In this document: piece after piece, positions 15,313 to 64,000 of the stretch
How positions within the stretch are numbered: position 1 is the first letter of the stretch
Layout of the letters: the number at the start of each line of letters is the position of its first letter
Assembly (NCBI GenBank): GCA_006503475.1
Contig: RSEH01000147.1
Coordinates: 56,667-120,666, forward strand
DNA: 64,000 nucleotides
Direction: 5' to 3'
Source: Stentor roeselii
Taxonomy: Eukaryota; Ciliophora; Heterotrichea; Heterotrichida; Stentoridae
The notes under the pieces: generated by a model
What the model was told of the DNA's origin: nothing
Databases searched by the model: none
The model's input: the letters and a program-made list of their open reading frames with translations, nothing else
Made by a program: the position numbers and the translations under genes

Positions 15313-16880
15313 ATGGGAGTAATTACTAGTGTACCTCAACCAATCAAGCTACAGATTCAAGATCTGGGAAATAGTCAGTCTGATACTTTAGTAATTGATT
15401 CAGAGCATTTCGAGAATAAATATGAGTGGACGTCTAAAGCATGTCTTGCGATAATCAGCAATAAAAGATGTAAAAAAGTAGTATTCAAGCTAAACTCAAT
15501 GACAGGCAAACCAAGCAGTTTATCCAAATCTCTAACAAAAGTCCTTCAAATAACAGAAAGTCTATATTTCTACGGAAATTCTTTAAAATGTTTCGAAGAC
15601 ACCTGCTGGGAGACAAGCTGGAAAACCTGCAAAATCGAGGTAAAAATATTTAGTCCCTTGCAATAAAAGACAAGTTAACAGGTCCAGCTTTCTTAAACCT
15701 CTGCATCGGTTTAAGCGAAAACACAAAATTAAAAGAACTGACCCTCGGATCTCTGACCCTTTCTGACATATCAGAACTGAACAAGTCCTTAAAAAAAAAC
15801 ACTTCTTTAAAATCTCTCAACATTCTTTGCGACATTCGAATAGTAAGCGATTCAAGTTCTAACGAGTCCCTCGAGTCCTCAGCCCCTTCAACAACTCATT
15901 CAATTCAAGGTTCTTCTCATTTATTAAGCGACAATTCAGGAGTTTCAAGCTATTCTCTGACAAACTACATCGAGAACTGCCCTTATCTGGTCTTGGGTCT
16001 TATTCGAAACCGTTCAGTTAAACGACTGGTTTTAGAAAATCTTGACATTGACAGAGAAACTTTAAACATCTGGTCTGAAATGTTTAGATTGAATCAGAAT
16101 ATCAAAGAAATTGATATTCGAAGAGGATTTAACACCTCAGCAGCGATGACGATTTTTGCAAGTTTGAAGAGAAATCGAAAGATTAACTTGCTTAAGTTGC
16201 AAGAATGTACTTTTGGAGAAGCGGGCTTTATGTTGCTTCAAGATCTTCTTAGGGAAAATCAAGGGTTGAAGAAATTAGAAGTGAAGGACTTGATGAGGCT
16301 TAGGTATAACTCGGAGACTTCAAATGATATGAAAAATTTCTTGCTGATTATTTCAGGACTCACTGATAATCAAAGTATTTTAGAAGCGAGTGTCTCGATT
16401 CACTCAAATCATTCTTGTGTTCCTCAGTCTTTCACTCCACAGGTGTCAAAAGCTTTACAGGACTTGGGAAAGTTAAACAGGTGGCTGGTTTCTTTGAAAA
16501 TCGAAGGGTTTAAACTATCAGGAAATGATATTTGTGGACTTTTAATCGGGTTGAAGGAAAATTCAGTTATGAAGACCTGTGTGTTGACGAGTAACTTAGT
16601 TGAATGGAAAGACTTGAGTTATATTTTAACTCTTGTTGAAGAACTTGAGGTTTTAATGGTACTTGACTTGCAAGACAACAAGATTTTGACTTACACTGAC
16701 CTGGAGAACTTAAAAGGAAAGTTCGTAGCTTCTCAAAGTCTCGCTTTTATGAAAGAAAGTCTTCTTTTGCTGCTTAAAGGGTTGAAATGTGAAGTCCGCA
16801 TCAGTTCCTGGCTGTTCGACCCGATGTGCTACCCGGCAGAGATTCAACCTATTGTAAAAAAGTCAAAAAATGTACATTAG
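15313..16880 (+). CDS. LRR protein with a 14-nt intron
   Basis: The frame opens at ATG 15313 (MGVITSVPQ). An in-frame TAA within the GTAA at 15640 would end it, and reading resumes in another frame from 15654. Removing the 14 bases 15640-15653 (GT...AG) joins the frames at phase 0 and gives a 517-aa protein ending in TAG. Sequence on both sides is LRR-like (KKVVFKLNSMTG, LKELTLGSLTLSDI, VKRLVLENLDIDRET, INLLKLQECTFGEAG). It is probably a protein-binding scaffold. There is no recognisable catalytic domain. The stop overlaps that of the convergent gene at 16877. Confidence 0.78.
15640..15653 (+). other. putative 14-nt intron
   Basis: GTAAAAATATTTAG. A length of 14 (2 mod 3) is exactly what the frame change requires; no other GT...AG option of near size fits. 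A lost A in the A5 run of a 15-nt intron is the main alternative. Confidence 0.65.
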
Positions 16881-55576: not shown

Positions 55577-58500
55577 TTATAATTGAGCTGATTGTGGAAT
55601 CGTTTCTGGAAAGGCTTTTGTGTTAAATCTTAAAATTTTTCTCCTGTTATTAAACAGAGTATCAATAATCTCCCGTGTCCTAAAAACCTTTTCAGAAAAA
55701 ATTTTTTTTTGATGTTTTGCTTTAAATTTCTCAAAATATCCTTCAAACACGCCCATTAACAAGGCAAACATCTCCATAATTCCAAAAGTCGACCCAATAA
55801 GTGCTCCAAGATAAAGAAAAAGTGACGAAGTAATGTTCCTAGCAGTGACAAGAGCAGTGTTGCTTTTTATCATTTGAATATGAATGTTCACAGTAGAGTC
55901 AGTATACATTCTAATTAAGTTTACCCTTGACTATCGATTGTAGATCCGATTGTGTGACTATTTGTATCGAATAGATGATATCCAGTTGATTTACTTGGCC
56001 ATTCTGAAGAATCTGAAGAAAATATCTGAGTAATTATTACTGAAGGAATCAGCTCAAACTTAAAAATGGAAGGACTCCCTCCTTTAAAGATCAAAGTTTC
56101 ATTTTCCGGAGATATGTTAATAAAAACTTTGCTCTCTGCTTCTGGAATAGAAGACGAAATCGAGACATTTAATGAAATCGAGCTCGAATAAGCCAGAATA
56201 TCATTGAAGATCATAATGATAGTTCCATCAGAAACAAGGTCAAAATTGCTAAATTTTCTAATAATCAAGCAATCATCTCCTATCTGTTCACATTTAGTTG
56301 AAGAGTCCTTATATTTTACCCCACTTTCATTAAAGTACTTTTCATTCATGCATTCATTGTTGCCTGTTGTGCAAGTAGTTGAAAAACTGTTGAGTCTCAA
56401 GTGAATCGTTAAAATCTCTGAAATTATTTTTTCTTGTCTAATAATACTAGGGACCAAGGTTTTAGTTTCCGTGATATTCCCAGTAAAATACAGGTAAAGG
56501 CCGAAGAACACTGATATAAAAGCAAATAAAATAAAAACAGATGAAAAAATTCCTCCAATAATAGTTTTTCTGAAAACAACTGGGTGATTTAAAGGATTTT
56601 CATGTTTATCAGTGAAAATATCAAAAAATTTGATAATTTTTCTGAACCTTTCCGATGATATTAGTAGAAAAATTATAAACAAGTAAAAAATAATGCAAAC
56701 TCCGAGTACTTGGTACATAAAATTCTCGTATTTTTCGTTATCGCTTGACCAAGACTCGGGCTGTAGACTTTGGTTCTCATGACTTATAGGCTTTGACTTT
56801 GGCATCTTTGACCCAATTGGACAAAATGTGTTAACTGGGCAGATTTTACAGTAAGTTGCTCCTAAATGATCGTTGAAAGTTCCGTAATCGCAAAACCAGC
56901 ATTTGACTACACTTGAAGCTCCATAAATATTTGAAAAAGTACCTGCTGGGCAAGGTATACAAGTTTCATTCATGAAATATGTTCCAGGTTGGCATAGTTT
57001 GCAGGTTTTTTCGAAAATACCGTTTAAACAAGACATTTTTACCTCTCCGGTGTTGAAGGAAAACTTGTACAGGGAGTTGGTTCCGTCATTTTTTAGTCTT
57101 GAATTGAAAAAACTTTTGACTCCTCCGAAGATGTACAGGGAATCTAGAACTTGAACTGATGAGTGGGAAAAGAGTCCAAAAGAATCTGAAAATGAATAGT
57201 GTTTTGAATGATTAGTTTTTATGTTGAATGAATAGATTGAGTTGGACACTCTTTTAGCATCAGTTAATCCTCCAATTATATGAAACCAGTCATTATCAAC
57301 AACCAGATCAAAAAACGAAGGAAAAAGAATTCCAGAACAATTTAAAACCTTTGCATTCACCTTCAATTCTTCAGTAAACAATTGAGAAAATTCAATTTTT
57401 ATGATAGAATTAATAGGATTATGCTGTTTTGTACTTCCACCCACCAGGAAAACTTCAAAATTTTTTCCAACTTCTCTAGAAAAGCACTTAAACCCAATCA
57501 TTTCTTGTGGAAGTTTATAGTTTACTACATATTCCTTATAATTCGAATAGTCAAAAACCACAATATCCCTAAAGACCTGAAAATCATTTTCTCCTCCAAT
57601 AATGAACAACTTACTCTCATAGGTAACAAAACAGCTTCCAAATCTGGGGAATTTTTCGAAAAAAGGAACAGGAAACTCAACCCACAAGTTTCTGCTGATA
57701 TCATATAAATACTGGTCTGAAAAAATCGAGCTTCCGTCTCGGCCTCCATAGAAAAGAAAGCCTAGATGTCTTAAATTAAGTGAAGCCATTAGTTCTCTTC
57801 CTTTAGGGGCTACCCCATCTGGATTCATCTCTGTCCATTCAAAAATATTAAAATTGAACTTTCAGACATCATTTAAGTACTTTTTTTCATTTGTAACTCC
57901 TCCAAATATGTATATTTCGTTGTCGAGGGCGTAGCTTAAGTGGTTTTTACGTGGTTCAGGAGCCTTTGTTGGCGGTAACACTTGAGTTCTGGAAAGGACA
58001 TCAGAGTTTAGGTTGTATTTTTGAATTGAATTTTCTAGACTAGTCGAAGTGCTGCCTGATATGAAGTAAAAGTAAGGACTTATCAGCATTGTACTTGAAC
58101 CTTGACGAAAGTCTTCAAGACTCATTTCTTGAATGTTCCAGATGTTCTTTTGGAATGAATACGTTAGAATACTTGCGAGTCTTTCAAGTCCTGCGCTAAT
58201 CCCAAAGAAAATAAAGAGATTATCTTTGAAGACTGTTGATTTATGGTCTCGTCTGCCGTCTGGCTTGTATCCCGCTGTTTCTATCTCGAACCACCTCAAA
58301 AGCTTCAAATCGAAACGAAAGAAGTACTTCCCTGTGTCCATCTTAGGAATCCCGAAAACAAAAAGACTCTCATTAAAATAGTCAATCGAATGACCAGTTA
58401 TTTCTCCAGGTCCTTCTCCATCGTATTCAACTTCTTCCACATTCATACTTTCAACATCAAGCCTAAATTTAACTTACAAGTAAAGTCTCTTTGAATCTCC

Positions 58501-58992
58501 TTCATTCCCTATTCCACCATGAATCCCTAGAATACTTTTTCCATTGTAAGAAAAAAAGGTTGAAGCTGAATCAACAAAAGCATCAATTTTTTTTCCTGTG
58601 AGAGTTTCCAGTTGCCACTCTTGAGATTGTAAGTCAAAACTGTAACAATCAGAAAATAGTTGGCTTTGGGTCGACCCGAAGAACAGAAAAAATTTCTGGT
58701 TGAAGATGAAAGATGTTGAAGAATGAAGACCAGGTGGAGAAAGTGATGACTTTGATTTGAACTCACCCCACTTTGAGGAATTGAAGTCGAAGTAGTGAAG
58801 AGTAGAAAAAATCGATGAAAAATCGGTATTTGTCCCTCCGAAGACTATGGCTTGGGATTTATCTTGGTAGTATGATGCTGTGCTGAAGATTGAACTTGAG
58901 GGAGTAGAGATTGATGATAGAATTTCATGGAACTCGAAACTCTTTACAGTATTGAAAAAAAAAATATACGTAACTAGTTGAGTTACTGACAT
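55577..58992 (-). CDS. kelch-repeat / Cys-rich / multi-TM receptor-like protein, copy A, with an in-frame TGA
   Basis: The coding path uses a 15-nt intron at 58463-58477 and a 14-nt intron at 55911-55924, and crosses one in-frame TGA at 57862-57864. The TGA aligns with a Trp codon (NDLWKFN) in copy B. The path is ~1128 codons. Domains in order: signal peptide (MSVTQLVTYIFFF), ~eight kelch-like blades (~25-395: AIVFGGTNTDF, NEIYIFGGVTNE, SKLFIIGGEND, DSLYIFGGVKS), Cys-rich repeats of GCC2/GCC3 type (CKLCQPGTYF, CIPCPAGTFS, CWFCDYGTF, CPVNTFCPIGS), TM1, TM2, an extracellular loop domain, and TM3 with a helical tail. Probably a cell-surface protein. It is the tandem copy of the gene at 59664. 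Confidence 0.8.
55911..55924 (-). other. 14-nt intron, kelch copy A
   Basis: On the minus strand GTAAACTTAATTAG. The 14-nt length is required by the frame change; the peptide across the junction (..YTDSTV..) matches copy B. Confidence 0.82.
57862..57864 (-). other. in-frame TGA at a Trp position, kelch copy A
   Basis: Reading continues in the same frame for 635 more codons. Copy B has TGG here (NDLWKFN versus NDV-stop-KFN). No other lesion is seen. Confidence 0.85.
58057..58917 (-). repeat. near-identical tract shared with kelch copy B (62144-63004)
   Basis: About 860 bp differ at only a handful of positions from 62144-63004, while coding sequence on both sides is clearly diverged. It includes the conserved 15-nt intron. 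Confidence 0.9.
58463..58477 (-). other. 15-nt intron, kelch copy A
   Basis: On the minus strand GTAAGTTAAATTTAG; identical in copy B (62550-62564). Removes an in-frame TAA. Confidence 0.92.
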
Positions 58993-59663
58993 TTTTATAT
59001 TACTTTGTTACAGATTTGCAAAGTTTAAAATTATTTTATCAAATAAGTTTCAATAGCTCAATCATATTTGCGCTCGAATTTTCTTTCAAATCTTTCATAA
59101 ATTGGAAAAGCTTGTATATTTTTAGTATTTTCTGATATTTCTTAATACTCAGTTAAATTATGAACATAAAGTTTAAGGGAGTGTTTTTAAATATCATACC
59201 AATTTTAATAAGAAAAAAATCCTAGCTTTAACATTTATGCTTATATTTTCCTTTTTATTGTTTAAATTTGTTATATGTACTAAATTAACTGCAGATTTGT
59301 TTAAGGTTATAATTGTAATTTCTGAAGCCATTCTATATCTTCATTTTTCCAAATTAGGAGTAAAATTCCTTAATTTTCATTATTGGGCTTCTAATTTATA
59401 AAGTGAAATATATACTCTTAATAGGCCTTTTTTATAATGTTCTAGTGATAGTGAACAAAGATTTAATTAGAAGTAAGAATTTATATTTGTTATCACAATT
59501 AAAGCATATCTTTTTTGGCTTTCAGTAATTTAGATGGAAAGATAATTATAAGATACTGAATAACTTTTAATTCAAGCAATTTAATCAACTATTATTCTTG
59601 AAATCTTGATGATTATTCTTCATATTTTCAAAATTTTATACTAATCCATATTATCTTCTAATT
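58993..59663. other. 671-bp AT-rich gap between kelch copies
   Basis: No ORF, repeat or RNA gene seen. Confidence 0.5.
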
Positions 59664-62600
59664 CTAAATGCGAACAGACTGTGCAGTTGATTCTGAGCAG
59701 GCCTTTCGAATAAAGCTTATACTTTTGTTATGATAGAAAAGAATATCTGTAATATTTCGTCGTGATTTTAAAATTTGTTCGGAATAAACCTTTTTATTAT
59801 GCTTGTGCACAAATTTATCAAAGTATCCCTCAAAAAATCCCATCAACAAGGAAAAAACTTCAAGCATTCCAAAGGTTGATCCAAGTAGAGCTCCAAGGTA
59901 AATGAAAAAAGATGAAGTGATGTTTCTGATAGTTACCAGAGTAGTACTGCTCTTTTTGATCTGAATATCAATTTTCACTGTAGAATCGGTGTATATTCTA
60001 ATTAACTATACCCTTCACTATTTGTCGTAGAGCCTAAAGTGTGAATATTTGTATCCAGTAAATGATATCCTGTTTGTTTACTTGGCCAGTCAGGAGAATC
60101 TGAAGTAAATATCTGAATAATAATTACAGAAGGAATCATCTCAATTCTATATATCGAAGGACTTCCTCCTTTAAAAATCAAAGTTTCATTTGGAGGATTC
60201 TGGTAAAAAAAGACTCTACTAGGTCCTTCCGGAATAGAAGACGATATCGAAAGATTCAAATTTATCGAGCTTGCAAAAGCCATAATATAATTAAAATTGA
60301 AAAATATGCTCCCATCAGACACAACATGAAAATTTCTAAACTCTTTAAAAACCAAGCAATCATCACCAATTTTTTCACATTCAGTAAAAGACTGATCATA
60401 CTTGACCCCTTTATCATTAAATATCCTTTCATTCATGCAGGTCTTATTTTCAAAAGCACAAATCGATCTAAAAGTATTAAGTCTAATCTCAATTCTTAAA
60501 CTTTTCGCAATAATTTCTTCATCAAGGGTAATACCTGGAACAAGAGTTTTATTTTCAGTGATATTTCCCACAAAATAAAGATAAATTCCAAAAAACAAGG
60601 TAATACCAGCGAATAACATAAAAACAGATGAAAAAATTCCACCAATTAAAGTCTTCTTTAAAATAACAGGTTTATCAAGAGGTTTTTCATGCCCATCAGT
60701 AAAAATATCAAGTTTAACCAAGAATTTTCTAAATTTATTGGTTGATAAAAGTATCATCATAATCAAGAGGTAAAAAATAATACTTGCCAGAAGTACTCGA
60801 TACATGAAACTTTCATAAACCTTTGTTTTGCTAGTCCAAGCTTCAGGCTGCAAGTCTTGATTTTCCATTTTCTGAGTTCTCGGCCTTGGGTTACTTGATC
60901 CAATAGGGCAAAAGGTATCAGCTGGGCAGACCTTGCAATGAGTTGATCCTTTTTTATCAGAAAAAAATCCAAAGTTGCAAAATCGACATTTTGTTACTCT
61001 TGAAGCTCCAACAAGTTCAGAGTAACTACCTTCCATGCAAGGTGAGCAGATACTATTATTGAAAAAAGTACCTGGAGGACAGAGTTTGCAGACTTTTTCT
61101 TTCACACCGTTTAAACATGACATGTTTTGTACTTTTTGGTCGAAATGAAACTTGTAAAGGGAGTTTGTTCCTTTGTTGTTGAGCCGGGTGTTAAAAAAAC
61201 TTTTCACTCCTCCGAAGATGTAGATTGAATCGAGCACTTGAACTGCTGAATGAGAAAAAAAACCGAATTCATTTGAAAATGATTGGGTTTTTAAATCGTA
61301 TGTGTTTAGGTTCAAGGATATGATTGAGTTTGAAACTCTTTTAGCATCGGTCAGACCACCGATTAGATGGGCCCAGTCATTGTCAACCACCAGGGCGAAT
61401 GAAGATGGAAGAAAAATTCCGGATTTGCTTAAGATTTCTGTTTTAAACACTAAATCGTCAGATGATAGCTGAGAGACTTCTATTTTTATCATGTAGTTTA
61501 TCAAGTGGTTTTCTGGTGTGCTTCCTCCGATTAGAAAAATCTCGAAAGTTTCGCCTATGTTTCGAGAAAAACAATTAAAATTTACTATATCGAGAGGAAG
61601 TTGGTATTTGATGTTGTATTCTTTGAAATTGGAAAAGTCATAAACAACTACATCTCTGAAAACCTCATAATTATTTTGTCCTCCAATAATAAATAGCAAG
61701 TTCCCAGTAAAAGTTAAACAATTTCCGAATCTCGGATACTTATAAAAATGAGGAGGAGTATAGTCAATCCATAAGTTCCTTAAAACATCATAATATCTCA
61801 TATCAGAATATATTGTGTCCCCATCACGACCGCCGAAGAATACAAAGCCCATCCCGAGAAAATCAGAAGAAGCCATCAATTCTCTTCTTTCAGGAGTGAC
61901 TCCCTTTGGATGTAACTCTGTCCATTCTAATCTCTCTATATTGAACTTCCAAAGATCATTCAAACACTCATTTTCATTCGTCACGCCTCCGAATATAAAG
62001 ATCTCATTGTCAAGATTATAACTCAAATGGTTTTTACGTGGTTGAGGAGCCTTGTTTGGGGGTTTTACCTGAGTTCTTCTTAAAATGTCAGAACTAAGGT
62101 CGTATCTTTGAATTGAATTTTCAAGGGATATTAAAGTACTGCCTGATATGAAGTAAAAGTAAGGACTTATCAGCATTGTACTTGAACCTTGATGAAAGTC
62201 TTCAAAACTCATTTCTTGAATGTTCCAGATGTTCTTTTGGAATGAATATGTTAGAATACTTGCGAGTCTTTCAAGTCCTGCGCTAATCCCAAAGAAAATA
62301 AAGAGATTATCTTTGAAGACTGTTGATTTATGGTCTCGTCTGCCGTCTGGCTTGTATCCCGCTGTTTCTATCTCGAACCACCTCAAAAGCTTCAAATCGA
62401 AACGGAAGAAATACTTCCCTGTGTCCATCTTAGGAATCCCGAAAACAAAAAGACTCTCATTAAAATAGTCAATCGAATGACCAGTTATTTCTCCAGGTCC
62501 TTCTCCATCGTATTCAACTTCTTCCACATTCATACTTTCAACATCAAGCCTAAATTTAACTTACAAGTAAAGTCTCTTTGAATCTCCTTCATTCCCTATT

Positions 62601-63082
62601 CCACCATGAATCCCTAGAATACTTTTTCCATTGTAAGAAAAAAAGGTTGAAGCTGAATCAACAAAAGCATCAATTTTTTTCCCTGTAAGAGTTTCCAGCT
62701 GCCACTCTTGAGATTGTAAGTCAAAACTGTAACAATCAGAAAATAGTTGGCTTTGGGTCGACCCGAAGAACAGAAAAAATTTCTGGTTGAAGATGAAAGA
62801 TGTTGAGGAATGGAGACTAGGAGGAGAAAGTGATGACTTTGATTTGAACTCACCCCAAGTAGAGGAATTGAAGTCGAAGTAGTGAAGGGTAGAAAAAATC
62901 GATGAAAAATCGGTATTTGTCCCTCCGAAGACTATGGCTTGGGATTTATCTTGGTAGTATGATGCTGTGCTGAAGATTGAACTTGAGGGAGTAGAGATTG
63001 ATGATTGTATTTCATGGAATTCAAAGCTTTTTACAACTGTACCAAGGAAGATGCCAAGGGTTATCAGGTTTTCTAATGACAT
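59664..63082 (-). CDS. kelch-repeat / Cys-rich / multi-TM receptor-like protein, copy B
   Basis: The coding path uses the 15-nt intron 62550-62564 and the 14-nt intron 59998-60011; it gives ~1129 codons with no in-frame stop. I chose the ATG at 63080-63082 (MSLENLITLGIFLG, a signal peptide) rather than 17 codons upstream. Domains match copy A: kelch blades, Cys-rich repeats (CKLCPPGTFF, CSPCMEGSYS, CRFCNFGFFS, CPADTFCPIGS), two TM helices (FMYRVLLASIIFYLLIMM; GGIFSSVFMLFAGITLFFG), a loop domain, and a third TM region. Stop TAG. The tandem copy with A suggests a small surface-protein family. Confidence 0.85.
59998..60011 (-). other. 14-nt intron, kelch copy B
   Basis: On the minus strand GTATAGTTAATTAG. 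Same position, phase and length as in copy A although the sequence differs. Confidence 0.82.
62550..62564 (-). other. 15-nt intron, kelch copy B
   Basis: On the minus strand GTAAGTTAAATTTAG. Removes an in-frame TAA. Confidence 0.92.
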
Positions 63083-64000
63083 TTTGATTATATATGATTC
63101 TGGGTTATTAGGAATAAGTCTGATTTGGGTCATTAAAAAAATTCGGGTTTAGTCCCTTGGTTGATATAGTTTGATAAGGATTTATAGTCATTTTGTTGAG
63201 ATCTTTAAATATTTATTATATAGGATAATTTAGATAATATTTATGAATTATAATCAAAGTAAATTTATTTAAGCGCAGTGCGATCACAATCAAGCTGATG
63301 CGAATAAGACTTTAGGAATTGAAACTTTTTCTCAATAACAATTATTGAACTCCAGATAAGTAAATTATCTTATCAAAATTAAAAAACACTTGCAGTCAAT
63401 ATTTACTAAATACATGATTTACATTCTGTAAAATTATAAGAATTAGTAGATTATTTTAAGATCTTAAGATAAGAGATTATTTTTTAACATTAAATACTTG
63501 TAAATTAATTATTTAGAAGTTTGTTCTTAATTATCTTATCAATTTCTCAACCAAATGCAATATTTCCCTCTATATCTAAACATATTATTATTATAATCTT
63601 TAAATAATTTCTGCATTAGGCTTAACAAAAAGTGCTATCTAGTAGATTTAACTTTTTGTTCAATCTGTGAAGAAAATCAATCTGATATTAAATTTTCTTT
63701 ATGTTTTCATCTATTTTTCAAATCATGCACAACTATTTATATTTCAATAAAAATCACAAAGGGGTAAAGTTATAATCTAAAATGTTTACACTATACTTTA
63801 TAGAGGTGTGTAATGATATCCCATTAGCCAATCATCCAAAATAATACATAAACGAAATCTAAACTTTTAATAGTGTTTGTCTATTGATATTATTCAAAAA
63901 ACTTCCATCCAGGTGCTAAATCCAAAAATACCCATCATCAAAATATTCACTCGAACTAGACTAGACCAAATCTCTCTACTTTAACGAAAGCTGGTTCCAA
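63083..64000. other. AT-rich end of window, upstream of kelch copy B
   Basis: No ORF of interest. The extra 17-codon extension above 63082 lies here but looks like leader. The rest is AT-rich with no recognisable gene, tRNA or telomere-like repeat. Confidence 0.5.

Follow-up and report, generated by a model that had tools for sequence, protein, structure and literature searches.

Candidate 14-nucleotide spliceosomal introns in kelch genes and an LRR-like gene of Stentor roeselii

Introduction

How short can a spliceosomal intron become? The question is raised by two kelch genes, A and B, on the minus strand of Stentor roeselii contig RSEH01000147.1 (assembly GCA_006503475.1), which lie in a stretch of 64,000 nucleotides (nt) covering positions 56,667 to 120,666, here termed the window, and whose last exons are out of frame with the preceding ones unless 14 nt are removed. 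An earlier note on this DNA proposed that the two 14-mers are spliceosomal introns conserved between paralogues. The analysis presented here points, with a probability of about 0.93, to U2-type GT..AG spliceosomal introns of 14 nt that would have arisen by the loss of one base from standard 15-nt introns and that recur as a minor class. This reading is directly supported by the sequences themselves, their homologous position, their recurrence, selection on the joined frame in A and B, and the small number of frameshifts in coding sequence.

The 15-16 nt cited in the earlier note for heterotrich introns agree with the annotation of Stentor coeruleus, in which the part of PMC9505925 used here lists only two lengths, 15 nt (8173 introns) and 16 nt (633 introns). 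The partial texts of two further sources put heterotrich introns at about 95% of 15 bp with the remainder of 16 bp, introns below 16 being negligible in Loxodes (PMC11441545), and name the 15 nt of Stentor as the shortest comparable case (PMC12316389). A spliceosomal intron of 14 nt, or a confirmed class below 15 nt, was not found in the open-access literature on short introns and heterotrich genomes, within the partial texts available. Among 5.39 million open papers, two contain a wording of a 14-nt or 14-bp intron and, judged by title and abstract, are about something else. Caution is advised by the very short annotated introns of Arabidopsis, which the excerpted PMC6161759 describes as lacking experimental support.

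Results

Joining the last exon in kelch genes A and B

The two genes are composed of the following elements, each 14-nt intron being a candidate.

55577..58992, minus strand: kelch gene A, four exons, from the chosen ATG to the stop
55577..55910, minus strand: last exon of kelch gene A, joined in frame to the preceding exon only on removal of 14 nt, with a hydrophobic stretch seen by eye
55911..55924, minus strand: 14-nt intron of kelch gene A, phase 2, GTAAACTTAATTAG, A at -6
56026..56040, minus strand: middle intron of kelch gene A, 15 nt, GTAATAATTACTCAG, without an in-frame stop
58463..58477, minus strand: first intron of kelch gene A, 15 nt, GTAAGTTAAATTTAG
59664..63133, minus strand: kelch gene B, four exons, 1141 amino acids
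59664..59997, minus strand: last exon of kelch gene B
59998..60011, minus strand: 14-nt intron of kelch gene B, phase 2, GTATAGTTAATTAG, A at -6
60113..60127, minus strand: middle intron of kelch gene B, 15 nt, GTAATTATTATTCAG, without an in-frame stop
62550..62564, minus strand: first intron of kelch gene B, 15 nt, GTAAGTTAAATTTAG

The exon before the 14-mer runs at once into a stop (IDSQG-TAA in A and NSEGYS-TAA in B), and the last exon, beginning YTDSTV, lies one frame off and is open for about 111 codons in both genes. Removal of the 14 nt gives SQG-MYTDSTV in A and SEG-IYTDSTV in B. Among GT..AG removals of 10-24 nt, with donors accepted from a point 15 nt before the exon alignment ends, 14 nt is the sole removal that restores the frame free of stops in A, in B and in the paralogue C102, which makes these introns a variant, and not a member, of the heterotrich 15/16-nt class. 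The need for exactly 14 nt at the same position and phase in both copies, as first proposed, therefore stands. Of random places with 30 possible starts, 2.0% contain a GT..AG 14-mer with an A at -6.

The ratio of nonsynonymous to synonymous substitution (dN/dS) between A and B is 0.25 over the 1011 upstream codons and 0.20 over the 111 codons of the last exon, indicating that, between A and B, selection acts on the shifted frame. The last exon of the paralogue C190 gives the weaker values of 0.29 and 0.49 against B or A, possibly as synonymous sites are near saturation. A frame reachable only via splicing is thus maintained, most clearly in A and B.

These ratios bear on the possibility that the genes are decaying, splicing having failed and the last exon being no longer made. 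Such decay would fit a TGA that stands in frame at 57862-57864 (minus strand) of gene A where the counterpart in B is TGG, although gene-wide dN/dS is low and this TGA may have arisen recently, may be read through or may reflect a base error. Gene B is open throughout, the last exon is open across the 99 codons examined in all five genes with a 14-nt intron at this site, and a 14-nt intron is also present in an unrelated LRR-like gene; decay is accordingly very improbable. Reassignment of UGA to tryptophan was considered and set aside: TGA is absent from 20 of the 23 window frames of at least 300 amino acids, and among 103 long frames it serves as the stop in 18. The code therefore looks standard, unlike that of Blepharisma stoltei, in which UGA encodes tryptophan according to the part of PMC9942806 cited here.

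The product of gene B has kelch repeats above the Pfam cut-offs, a cysteine-rich stretch resembling ephrin-receptor-like repeats that falls under the Pfam cut-off, and hydrophobic segments identified by eye. Identity between A and B is 95-100% over 58108-58857 of A and 60-80% elsewhere, a pattern as after recent gene conversion.

The last intron site among the paralogues

Searching the genome (44.39 Mb in 522 contigs, the window included) with the C-terminal part of B as the query yields 106 match rows, in some cases with one gene split over two rows. The 81 matches to the last exon, after dropping one without an upstream partner and three repeats from overlapping loci, leave 77 distinct members, in which the junction has a 15-nt intron at the same position and in phase 2 (38 members, one of them open without removal and placed by homology and another placed by eye), an intron of 14 nt (5 members) or none (34 members). 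Five further short readings show a 15-nt intron in one (C303) and none in four, bringing the site to 82 paralogues, 39 with 15 nt, 5 with 14 nt and 38 intronless. The family occurs in tandem clusters (C410, C62, C297, C262, C514 and C276). Besides A and B, the 14-nt candidates at this site are as follows.

C190: 14-nt intron at the last site, GTAAAGTTAAGTAG
C88: 14-nt intron at the last site, GTAAATTTATTTAG
C102: 14-nt intron at the last site, GTAAAATTATTTAG

In C190 and C88 other lengths also restore the frame, and 14 nt was picked by position and motif.

On a maximum-likelihood tree built from 57 members, three changes of the 14-nt label are required, three being forced by well-supported branches, and trees with a single change make up 0% of 200 bootstraps. 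A, B and C190 form a clade (100/99), the sister of C88 is a 15-nt neighbour (100/100), and C102, nested in a 15-nt group, pairs with a member of 15 nt (84/83). The 14-nt state is common to A, B and C190 by descent, so that A and B represent one event and not two. Conservation between the two copies, which the earlier note had set against a sequencing error, is for this reason weak when taken alone; stronger support comes from the third clade member, 41% identical to B, from the other 14-nt introns and from the near absence of coding indels. The contraction in A, B and C190 would have persisted since a split now at 41% identity, and the natural reading of the tree is that three contractions occurred.

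Recurrence at other sites and in an unrelated gene

A 14-nt class was sought beyond A and B, and it recurs at other kelch sites, in the LRR-like gene and in a length-blind census. At the first intron of the kelch genes, 2 of 29 called introns have 14 nt (C499 and C460) and 27 have 15 nt. At the middle intron a script placed 64 rows, 37 with 15 nt and 27 without the intron; it leaves some members unplaced, among them C303, whose middle intron was read separately by eye as 14 nt (GTAAAAATAAGCAG). The five codons matching 56026-56040 of A are absent in 27 paralogues by the pattern used, and many middle introns without a stop are recognised because intronless genes lack these codons. Stop-less introns such as 56026-56040 and 60113-60127 are missed by a frame-based model, so the true number of introns is probably above that of the census.

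The LRR-like gene lies elsewhere in the window.

15313..16880, plus strand: LRR-like gene holding a 14-nt intron, LRR-like by eye, with no Pfam match
15640..15653, plus strand: candidate 14-nt intron of this gene, phase 0, GTAAAAATATTTAG, A at -6

Its paralogue on C7 is intronless, and the alignment of the two proteins runs through the join with no gap. Within the window there are three 14-nt and eight 15-nt introns, of which one and four, respectively, lie outside both kelch genes. The exact word GTAAACTTAATTAG has 4 matches genome-wide and 6 in the reversed control and is not enriched, so the class is set by context and not by the word; its matches on C503 and C517 show no convincing intron by eye.

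The census covers 326,632 merged bases of the genome with a gene model that admits any intron of 11-25 nt at equal prior, uses codon and dicodon scores, and takes its end motifs from 15-nt introns. At the main setting 75 introns are called (69 of 15 nt, 5 of 14 nt and 1 of 18 nt, with none of 16 nt), at a looser setting 81 (72, 8 and 1 of 15, 14 and 18 nt) and at a stricter setting 62 (56, 5 and 1), and the reversed control gives 2, 2 and 1 introns at the three settings, none of 14 or 15 nt. The possible 18-nt intron (L051 offset 4498, on C460, GTATAAAAAGGCAAACAG) may be a misplaced 15-nt intron. With B added by hand, the compared set comprises 82 introns, and 16-nt introns number 0 of 82 in it. 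A motif-free version of the model likewise calls mainly 15-nt introns, with an A at position 10 in 68 of 68, and its 12-nt calls, inspected by eye, probably represent 15-nt introns that were ended too early, at an internal AG.

Missing bases and frameshifts

Since the homologous introns have 15 nt, the loss of one base from the assembly would give exactly this picture, the true introns all being 15 nt long. Over a coding span of 248 kb, however, the model calls a single frameshift, located in a weak gene, when a frameshift is priced as an intron, and raising the price removes it. This makes a sequencing error very unlikely; across the 82 introns some 0.005 indels would be expected, where 5-8 are seen. 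A model restricted to 15-nt introns calls five frameshifts at the intron price (four and two at higher prices), all of them minus one. Three of these lie at most 2 nt from the LRR-like, C190 and C88 sites, one lies about 35 nt from the C460 site, and the last is the frameshift already mentioned; none is called at C102, A or B. There is no 16-nt counterpart to the class, and the 14-nt state is common to three diverged paralogues. A missing base is thus an extremely improbable explanation.

A ribosomal -1 frameshift at the junction, with no splicing, would also reach the downstream frame, and in both A and B a GGG straddles the end of the exon. Against this, paralogues have in-frame stops that are removed by the 15-nt intron at the same place, the sites have no slippery heptamer in common by eye, the -1 frame of B contains a TAG within the 14-mer, and the GT..AG ends and the A at -6 are kept. 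The gapless join of the LRR-like protein is moreover obtained only with all 14 nt absent from the mRNA, and frameshifting is as improbable as a missing base.

Intron anatomy and the spliceosome

GT..AG ends are present in all listed 14-nt introns. At the last site an A at -6 is found in 5 of 5 introns of 14 nt and 37 of 38 of 15 nt, and the 5-nt tail following this branch-like A is kept in 5 of 5. Among motif-free calls at the middle setting the A at -6 occurs in 8 of 8 introns of 14 nt compared with 8 of 23 over eight decoys. The argument draws on the homology-derived and motif-free sets only, as the motif model favours that A by construction. Conservation of the A at -6 places the lost base between it and the 5' splice site.

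Three small nuclear RNAs, U2, U6 and U12, were sought as a check on the spliceosome. U2 is found with the branch-binding sequence GUAGUA (142.6 bits) and U6 with ACAGAGA (97.1 bits), and a U12-like match (C513:33061-33189) scores 36.4 bits, below the cut-off of 53. The 14-mers would be excised from RNA by the major spliceosome, with the A at -6 as the putative branch point.

Precise removal of intragenic internal eliminated sequences is described for Blepharisma in the part of PMC9942856 cited here, and the 14-mers could in principle be such sequences, removed in macronuclear development and retained in the assembly. The sites coincide with 15-nt GT..AG introns carrying the branch-like A, and the chance of this explanation is close to negligible.

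Discussion

Spliceosomal introns of 14 nt remain the best reading of both junctions, as the earlier note had proposed, because paralogues carry 15-nt introns at the same site and the length recurs elsewhere; the step from these patterns to excision is made from sequence. One base would have been lost between the 5' splice site and the branch-like A of a 15-nt intron. As the A at -6 is retained together with the five bases that follow, the lariat loop would shorten by one base, from 10 nt to 9 nt, and the 3' tail would keep its length of 5 nt. Such a contraction would be silent as long as splicing works, the exon frames being unchanged after excision, which may explain its recurrence. Contraction on more than one occasion would then leave 14-nt introns as a minor class alongside a major class of 15 nt.

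Several observations weigh against this reading or narrow it. The three changes on the tree also fit one contraction followed by the regain of a base on two occasions. The motif model never called the intron of B and called that of A only at the loosest setting, so both rest on homology. Motif-free 14-nt calls number 3, 8 and 9 at the three settings against 0-2, 0-8 and 5-16 for eight decoy end pairs, and are not clearly above them. Of the 82 introns, 73 belong to five clusters of homologous sites that by eye all lie in kelch genes, and the sample therefore leans to one family. An extra 14-nt candidate on C221 (GTAAACTTAATTAG) is weaker, having been fetched by means of that very word, and the in-frame TGA of gene A belongs here as well.

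The candidate introns resemble those of Stentor coeruleus, as far as the cited part of PMC9505925 describes them, in their GT..AG ends, their AT-richness, a putative branch A that usually occupies position 10 in 15-nt and position 11 in 16-nt introns, with a 5-nt tail, and the preserved core sequences of U2 and U6, and differ in that the minor class here has 14 nt in place of 16 nt. This intron anatomy, together with the apparently standard code, is the basis on which the genome was taken as that of a heterotrich. In Blepharisma stoltei the introns are similarly tiny, predominantly of 15 and 16 bp, and a 14-nt class is not mentioned in the available portion of PMC9942806. The introns of mikrocytids (16/17 nt) and of chlorarachniophyte nucleomorphs (18-21 nt), in the partial text of PMC10245619, likewise occupy a narrow range at the lower limit, but belong to other lineages and are at least 2 nt longer. 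It is likely that this ciliate has shifted its set of intron lengths from 15/16 to 14/15 nt, with a 14-nt class of about 5-10% derived repeatedly from 15-nt introns and forming the shortest class known. The comparison suggests a rule in which the distance from the branch to the 3' splice site is fixed and that from the 5' splice site to the branch is variable (9 and 10 in the present introns, against 10 and 11 in Stentor coeruleus).

Gene callers restricted to 15-16 nt would break genes of this kind. The 14-nt class, if true, would be the shortest class of spliceosomal introns known, and the 14-nt and 15-nt versions of one intron position, carried by paralogues of a single genome, would provide natural single-base length variants. 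The lower limit of intron size bears on how the branch helix and the 5' and 3' splice sites fit together in one active site.

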